NCBI GenBank assembly: GCA_022828225.1
Contig: JAJEJG010000023.1
Span: 107,001-171,000, forward strand
DNA length: 64,000 nucleotides
DNA from: Nitrospirales bacterium
Lineage (GTDB): Bacteria; Nitrospirota; Nitrospiria; Nitrospirales; UBA8639
Direction of reading: 5' to 3'
The notes below the pieces were generated by a model. The model searched no databases. It worked only from the letters and a program-made list of their open reading frames with translations, and was not told where the DNA came from. Below are positions 1,826-27,359 of the stretch, piece by piece. The translations under genes were made by a program, and so were the position numbers. How positions within the stretch are numbered: position 1 is the stretch's first letter; the number at the start of each line of letters is the position of its first letter.

Positions 1826-1866
1826 TCCCTCACCCTGCCCTCTCCCACGGCGGGGAGAGGGTTCAG
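1826..1866. repeat. Dispersed palindromic repeat, family A (GGGAGAGGG type)
   Basis: The core is CCCTCTCCC, a short spacer, then GGGAGAGGG, preceded by a CTCACCCTG tail. The same element occurs twice inside mnmE (about 26089 and 26980). Here it lies directly upstream of mfd and may form a hairpin in the leader. Confidence 0.7.
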
Positions 1867-25857: not shown

Positions 25858-25888
25858 ACGACCCTTCGACTGCGCTCAGGGCAGGGGT
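25858..25888. repeat. Small dispersed repeat between yidC and mnmE
   Basis: CCTTCGACTGCGCTCAGGGC is a widespread bacterial intergenic repeat motif (it reads ALSAVEG or LRSGQ in translation). It fills the 42-bp gap between yidC and mnmE. Confidence 0.5.
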
Positions 25889-25895
25889 TTCTTCC

Positions 25896-27359
25896 ATGGA
25901 AAACTCGGTTGATGATACCATTTGTGCGATCGCCACTCCCGTGGGAGAAGGCGGAATCGGTATCGTCCGGATCAGCGGCGCCCGCGCCGTTGACATCGCC
26001 GCGCACGTCGTACGCCCCCGCAACCAACAGCCCCTGCAACAACTGGAAAGTCATCGTCTGTATCTGAGCGACGTCCTGTATGCGCGATCCCCTCTCCCCC
26101 TGGGAGAGGGCCAGGGTGAGGGTCCCATAGACGAAGCCCTGGTCGTCGTCATGCGCAAGCCCCGTTCGTATACGGGCGAGGACGTGGTGGAAATCCAGAC
26201 GCATGGCGGGGCCTGGATCCTGCAGGCCACCTGTCACGGCCTGATCCGGCACGGGGCCAGAATGGCGCAACCCGGAGAGTTTACCAAGCGGGCGTTTCTC
26301 AACGGCCGGTTGGATCTCACCCAGGCGGAGGCGGTGCTCGATACGATTCAAGCCACGACCTCGCGTAGCCTGCAAGCGGCGCAATCCTTGCTGCGCGGAT
26401 CCCTTTCAAAAGAAGTCGATGCTCTGCGCGAAAGATTGATTCGAGTCCTGGCGCACGTGGAAGCCGGGATGGATTTCGCCGAGGAGGATATTACCTTTAT
26501 CCAGGCGGCCGAGGTGCAGCAGGCCTTGACGGACACGCAAAGAGCCGTGGAGCAATTGATCTCGTCCTATGAGGAAGGCCGCCTGATCCGTGAAGGCATC
26601 AAGGTCGCCATCATCGGCCGGCCAAACGTGGGCAAGTCGAGTCTCCTCAACGCGCTGCTGAAACTGGATCGCGCGATCGTGTCGGATCAGCCCGGAACGA
26701 CCCGCGATGTGATCGACGAATCCATGAACGTCCGAGGCATCCCCCTGCGCCTGCTGGATACGGCAGGCCTGCGAAGGACCCAGGACATGATCGAAGGCGA
26801 AGGCATCCGTAGAACCGAAGACGCAATAGCCGAAGCCGATGTGTTGTTGCTCGTGGTAGACGGCGCTGCGGGCGTGACGGACGAAGACCGTGCCGTGTTC
26901 GAAACATACGGCTCCCGACGACACCTGCTCGTGATGAATAAAATGGACCTCCCCCAATCCCAGTCGTTCGACGCGCGCTCCCTCCCTCTCCCCCCCGTGG
27001 GAGAGGGCCAGGGTGAGGGGGAAAAGGGTGAGGGTGAAGGGCTGGAGTTCGTCAAAGTCTCCGCGAAAACAGGCGAAGGCCTTGATCATTTGACGTCGGT
27101 CATTCAAAGTGTCTGCCTCAAAGAAGGGCTTGAAGCGGCTCCGTCCGTGCTCGTGACGCGGCTGCGCCACAAGGCCAGCCTGGAGCAGGCGCACCGCTCC
27201 CTTGAAGAGGCCATGCGTTCGCTAGAGCGAAAAGAATCCGGAGAATGTGTCGCCCTGGATATCCGAGCCGCGCTCGATGCACTGGGAGAAATCACCGGCG
27301 CAGTCAGTACCGAGGACATTCTGGACCGGATATTTCAGGATTTCTGCATAGGGAAGTAA
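25896..27359 (+). CDS. mnmE: tRNA modification GTPase MnmE (TrmE)
   Basis: With MnmG it installs carboxymethylaminomethyl on U34 of certain tRNAs. The protein has 487 residues. The N-terminal tetrahydrofolate-binding domain includes SYTGEDVVEIQTHGG; the GTPase has G1 GRPNVGKSS, G3 DTAGLR, G4 NKMD and G5 SAKTGEG; the C-terminus ends CIGK, with the conserved cysteine. Two in-frame insertions derived from repeat family A are present: about residues 64-77 (SPLPLGEGQGEG) and about 360-383 (LPPVGEGQGEGEKGEGEG, between G4 and G5). Both fall in loops and keep the frame, so the enzyme is probably functional. Confidence 0.97.
   Translation: MENSVDDTICAIATPVGEGGIGIVRISGARAVDIAAHVVRPRNQQPLQQLESHRLYLSDVLYARSPLPLGEGQGEGPIDEALVVVMRKPRSYTGEDVVEIQTHGGAWILQATCHGLIRHGARMAQPGEFTKRAFLNGRLDLTQAEAVLDTIQATTSRSLQAAQSLLRGSLSKEVDALRERLIRVLAHVEAGMDFAEEDITFIQAAEVQQALTDTQRAVEQLISSYEEGRLIREGIKVAIIGRPNVGKSSLLNALLKLDRAIVSDQPGTTRDVIDESMNVRGIPLRLLDTAGLRRTQDMIEGEGIRRTEDAIAEADVLLLVVDGAAGVTDEDRAVFETYGSRRHLLVMNKMDLPQSQSFDARSLPLPPVGEGQGEGEKGEGEGLEFVKVSAKTGEGLDHLTSVIQSVCLKEGLEAAPSVLVTRLRHKASLEQAHRSLEEAMRSLERKESGECVALDIRAALDALGEITGAVSTEDILDRIFQDFCIGK
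26089..26122. repeat. Family A palindromic repeat inserted in frame in mnmE (copy 1)
   Basis: CCCCTCTCCCC, then GGGAGAGGGCCAGGGTGAGGG. It encodes SPLPLGEGQGEG in MnmE, a stretch absent from normal MnmE between the N-terminal strands and the ALVVVMRKPRSYTG segment. Confidence 0.85.
26980..27040. repeat. Family A palindromic repeat inserted in frame in mnmE (copy 2)
   Basis: CCCTCTCCCCCCCGTGGGA, then GAGGGCCAGGGTGAGGGGGA and two further AGGGTGA units. It encodes the Gly/Glu-rich insert between the G4 and G5 motifs of the GTPase domain. Confidence 0.85.

Follow-up and report, generated by a model that had tools for sequence, protein, structure and literature searches.

The conserved tRNA modification GTPase gene mnmE of a Nitrospirales bacterium carries, within its reading frame, two copies of a short dispersed repeat whose sequence pattern assigns it to the BoxC/PIT/TM_ECO family of intrastrand-triplex motifs. 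BoxC repeats came to notice in the 1990s and, to our knowledge, have no assigned function to date. It is probable that both copies entered mnmE early in the history of the genus, that they are read as exposed flexible loops and that their arms have been kept at the level of DNA or RNA. Judged from sequence comparisons, the mnmE repeat behaves like an insertion of a Rickettsia palindromic element (RPE) while belonging to another family, and something appears to act on its DNA or RNA.

The window analysed here is a stretch of 64,000 nt from this genome (G000, 2.36 Mb). The host gene (25896-27359, + strand, 487 aa) matches NCBIfam NF003661 (E 9.7e-124) and contains the Pfam domains TrmE_N (residues 8-138), MnmE_helical and MMR_HSR1. 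The first copy (site 1; 26090-26122, + strand, 33 nt) has the sequence CCCTCTCCC-CCT-GGGAGAGGG-CCA-GGGTGAGGG, is read in frame as SPLPLGEGQGEG and occupies residues ~65-76, in a loop of the N-terminal folate-binding domain (TrmE_N). The second (site 2; 26984-27019, + strand, 36 nt) has the sequence CCCTCTCCC-CCCCGT-GGGAGAGGG-CCA-GGGTGAGGG, is read in frame as LPLPPVGEGQGEG and occupies residues ~363-375, between G4 (NKMD, 348-351) and G5 (SAK). The peptide PLP-GEGQGEG is common to both, and 100 dinucleotide shuffles of the window gave a chance expectation of 0.00 for the repeat. Copy 2 is followed by a GGTGAG-rich tail (27020-27047, + strand; repeat D4); dimer and tail occur together in relatives, and the tail is possibly what remains of a dimer that collapsed. 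Another dispersed repeat, CCTTCGACTGCGCTCAGGGCAGG, lies between yidC and mnmE (25863-25885), where the frame is open ahead of the start codon (ATG) of mnmE, and has 48 genome copies with at most one mismatch (control, 0). Among relatives (L033-L043), mnmE and mnmG are separated by anything from ~20 nt to 2.7 kb.

The third copy in the window (1827-1861, - strand) has a second loop of only 2 nt. It is intergenic and immediately precedes mfd, an ORF with the Pfam domains TRCF, UvrB_inter and CarD_TRCF_RID whose likely ATG follows after ~25 nt. At the same spot the copy is intact in the relative G006 and decayed in G003; an empty-site comparison of G006, G003 and G010 gave no clean insertion boundary upstream of mfd, the G010 region not being alignable. 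An earlier, sequence-only reading of this DNA had proposed two in-frame palindromic repeats in mnmE, in the folate-binding domain and between G4 and G5, translated as Gly/Glu-rich loops, together with a third, intergenic copy upstream of mfd. All of this agrees with our results, save that 'palindromic' describes the hairpin of C-arm and G-arm but not the third, G-rich arm of the unit, GGGTGAGGG.

The TM_ECO triplex motif, earlier named BoxC or PIT, is CCCTCNCCC-N3-6-GGGNGAGGG-N3-GGGNGAGGG (Holder et al. 2015, PMC4666352). This full pattern fits both mnmE copies exactly, as it does 34 of the 59 copies in G000, the others deviating in an arm base or in loop length. TM_ECO occurs 3610 times in 262 proteobacterial genomes, always intergenically in E. 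coli MG1655, and has been associated with local instability or size change; BoxC is able to form a three-stranded structure in vitro, with no stable triplex in vivo (PMC4666352). Folding as a duplex (plain hairpin) gave z near 0 against shuffles, the composition being so extreme that this value is uninformative. A G-quadruplex (GGG-AGA-GGG-CCA-GGG-TGA-GGG) is conceivable on paper and was rejected: the A and T of the would-be loops are also fixed, which fits triplex arms better, and NMR of E. coli oligonucleotides speaks against a quadruplex (Holder et al., PMC4666352).

A genome-wide count found the 59 copies in G000 on both strands, and none of a reversed control pattern. The 14 genomes of the genus that we compared hold ~1,100 copies in total, from 0 (G007) to 254 (G004) per genome, and genomes from the family's other genera have few; the closest MnmE relatives come from MAGs labelled Nitrospirales or Nitrospira sp. 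Only three of the 59 copies are within genes, flanked at either end by recognisable coding sequence (mnmE twice and a Slam-like gene once), the rest being mostly intergenic; long, antisense-looking ORFs over intergenic copies had no match in a Pfam search and were treated as non-coding. In the Slam-like outer-membrane protein (Pfam SlipAM) the element sits in the linker after the signal peptide, where paralogues of relatives (L216, L217, L227, L220, L222) carry BoxC-derived peptides in several frames. The 41 copies read in G001 include one in an unclassified ORF and two in a single N6_N4_Mtase-domain gene; in this DNA methylase gene (L242, L243, G001:C32) the two BoxC copies are in frame, as in mnmE. 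The mnmE, Slam-like and DNA methylase copies therefore depart from the intergenic location seen in E. coli, an observation rather than a formal definition of the family. Five of the six reading frames through the element are open, so that an in-frame reading requires only the correct length.

When were the two mnmE loops occupied? We compared them in the 12 genomes of the genus with an intact mnmE and in several other genera, identifying copies by their peptide, so that decayed copies are under-counted. Site 1 holds the element in ten of the 12 genomes (decayed in G010 and G012) and site 2 in nine (G013 and eight of the ten others described below), with GEGQGEG retained at both sites in most genomes. 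G001 and G003 have the element at site 1 and none at site 2, G013 has it at site 2 only, and G007, with no copy anywhere in its genome, has Ala-rich loops. In trees, G007 and G013 fall outside a group of the other ten genomes; the protein tree was too shallow to order these ten and a DNA tree was used, their inner branching being weakly supported. The simplest order is therefore a gain at site 2, followed by one at site 1 and later by the loss of two site-2 copies, and the element probably reached site 2 before site 1, although the absences in G001 and G003 could reflect allele exchange or a retained empty state rather than loss. In other genera both loops are of unrelated sequence, site 1 spanning 27-33 aa and site 2 28-47 aa, anchors counted. 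The sequence-only reading had named equal-length, unrelated loops in close relatives lacking the element as the finding that would refute it; taken literally, site 1 shows just this in other genera (27-33 against 31 aa, anchors counted), which suggests that a loop variable from the start was replaced or rebuilt and not simply lengthened, and leaves the DNA match to 57 other genome copies standing.

In six relatives the element forms a tandem dimer, at site 1, at site 2 or at both. The first monomer of the dimer reads PLPLGEGQGEG and the second, two bases out of phase, ERARVRG, so that the frame would be lost if the monomers recombined with each other. The GGTGAG repeats of the tail are in phase, collapses between them keep the frame, and we infer that several single-monomer loops, which resemble such products, arose in this way. 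Loop lengths in mnmE are all multiples of three, every change of size preserving the frame. Across the genus, seven of ten matches to the dimer pattern and nine of 11 to the tail motif, the latter at both sites, fall in mnmE, and the two sites of G005 have 57 of 61 nt in common across the dimer. Since spacer and tail are hardly found outside mnmE, one site was probably seeded by the other.

An AlphaFold2 model of MnmE (mean pLDDT 81.5), which matches solved MnmE structures, places both elements in its lowest-confidence loops, with pLDDT < 50 at residues 67-73 (copy 1) and 367-381 (copy 2). This prediction fits loops that are exposed, flexible and tolerated.

In-gene copies of BoxC permit a test that is impossible in spacers, as synonymous sites separate constraint on the peptide from constraint on DNA or RNA, and its first outcome suggests that it is the arms that are constrained. 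At site 2, seven codons with their third base in an arm are identical (100%) across nine genomes, compared with 71% for core codons matched for amino acid and genome (0 of 20,000 draws reached 100%); two Gly codons with their third base outside the arms agree at just 46%. At site 1, where there were fewer genomes and the decayed copies of G010 and G012 were left out, the figures are 100% and 76% (0.4% of draws). The second monomers contain 30 Arg codons, every one of them AGG, against 12 of 451 (2.7%) in the mnmE core. Such an arm-specific pattern is not what peptide selection would be expected to leave. The simplest reading of the conserved arms is a constraint at the level of structure, with the proviso that recognising copies by their peptide could hide decayed ones. 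Whether the arms are selected, or maintained by a template, as nucleic acid, so that this part of mnmE is doubly coded for a peptide loop and a BoxC structure, we regard as a tentative proposal, with the odds rather against it. If it is true, the stretch might act as a signal in replication, transcription or mRNA, and would offer a natural test bed for the role of BoxC, because the coding frame gives an internal neutral ruler.

Uniform arms could also result if intergenic copies converted or re-seeded those in mnmE, and each genome has many potential donors. Yet the second loop of the mnmE copies is CCA or TCA, not the common CTG, their spacer and tail are private, and conversion tracts would have brought in features such as CTG unless they were very short. 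The CCA loop is rare elsewhere (three of the 59 genome copies, among which CTG is the prevailing loop). This argues against continual re-seeding, and we consider conversion or re-seeding an unlikely explanation.

Less likely still is mobilisation by a RAYT transposase, with the repeat as a REP/BIME-type element. The five genomes of the genus with a RAYT-like gene do have the most copies (110-254 against 0-85; Mann-Whitney p 0.001), but G000 and seven more genomes in the genus that carry the element gave no match to PF01797, and the RAYT genes found in relatives are not flanked by the element. RAYT was thus rejected as the driver, the copy-number correlation being seen and the flanking association absent. 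RAYT-like genes are L155, L157-L160 and L156, in G004, G011, G009, G006 and G013.

Selection for the peptide, with a Gly/Glu-rich loop useful to MnmE and the DNA similarity a by-product or convergence, could account for the retention of GEGQGEG at both sites; nevertheless we find it very improbable, given third positions that are fixed only within the triplex arms and free outside them, the invariable use of the rare AGG, identical DNA in intergenic copies, and the absence of the element at site 2 in G001 and G003 and at site 1 in G013 and G007. That the repeat is an RPE or a close relative, a mobile palindrome repeatedly entering genes, is scarcely credible: its in-frame residence in conserved genes in several frames (mnmE, Slam-like, DNA methylase) is as described for RPEs, whose unit however measures 105-146 bp and ends in inverted repeats of 12 bp (PMC2229807), whereas ours is a three-arm BoxC/TM_ECO sequence of 33-36 nt, not one long palindrome with ~12-bp inverted ends, and the comparison upstream of mfd found no empty/filled site pair with a target duplication. 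The resemblance to RPEs suggested by the sequence-only reading accordingly holds for dispersed repeats that entered conserved genes in frame and are tolerated in loops, and not for the identity of the element.

We therefore favour an early entry of BoxC copies with maintenance of their arms. The element would first have reached the G4-G5 loop, before the G013 branch, and intragenic copying from there would have filled the folate-domain loop. Tandem dimers would then have arisen and later shrunk as short GGTGAG repeats slipped or recombined, products that broke the frame being lost. MnmE may tolerate the element because its two loops are places where length and sequence differ anyway among other genera, and the DNA arms would be kept by a force at the DNA or RNA level (structure or templated copying) and not by the peptide alone. 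If so, mnmE illustrates frame-filtered growth and shrinkage of loops in a conserved GTPase, and protein-coding repeats extend beyond Rickettsia-like bacteria.

Compared with known systems, the repeat is like the BoxC/TM_ECO of Holder et al. in its sequence pattern, three arms and loop sizes, in its tens to hundreds of dispersed copies, in numbers that differ strongly between relatives, and in local size change. Unlike BoxC of E. coli MG1655, which is always intergenic, Nitrospirales copies also reside in frame within conserved genes, and unlike those described in proteobacteria they occur partly as tandem direct dimers. With REP/BIME it shares the form of short dispersed extragenic hairpins, though the window's genome is without RAYT and the RAYT genes of relatives are without a flanking element. 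As with RPEs and the protein-coding palindromes of Wolbachia (PMC2229807), in-frame repeats are tolerated in conserved protein genes, but RPEs are long palindromes of unrelated sequence. Cod-2 (Cozzuto et al. 2008, PMC2267715) is likewise a very small repeat found in various coding sequences and in several frames; it is a different family, and the parts of that report considered here describe no triplex motif for it. The repeat family is thus already known, while its role within genes and its Nitrospirales lineage are new relative to the literature compared.
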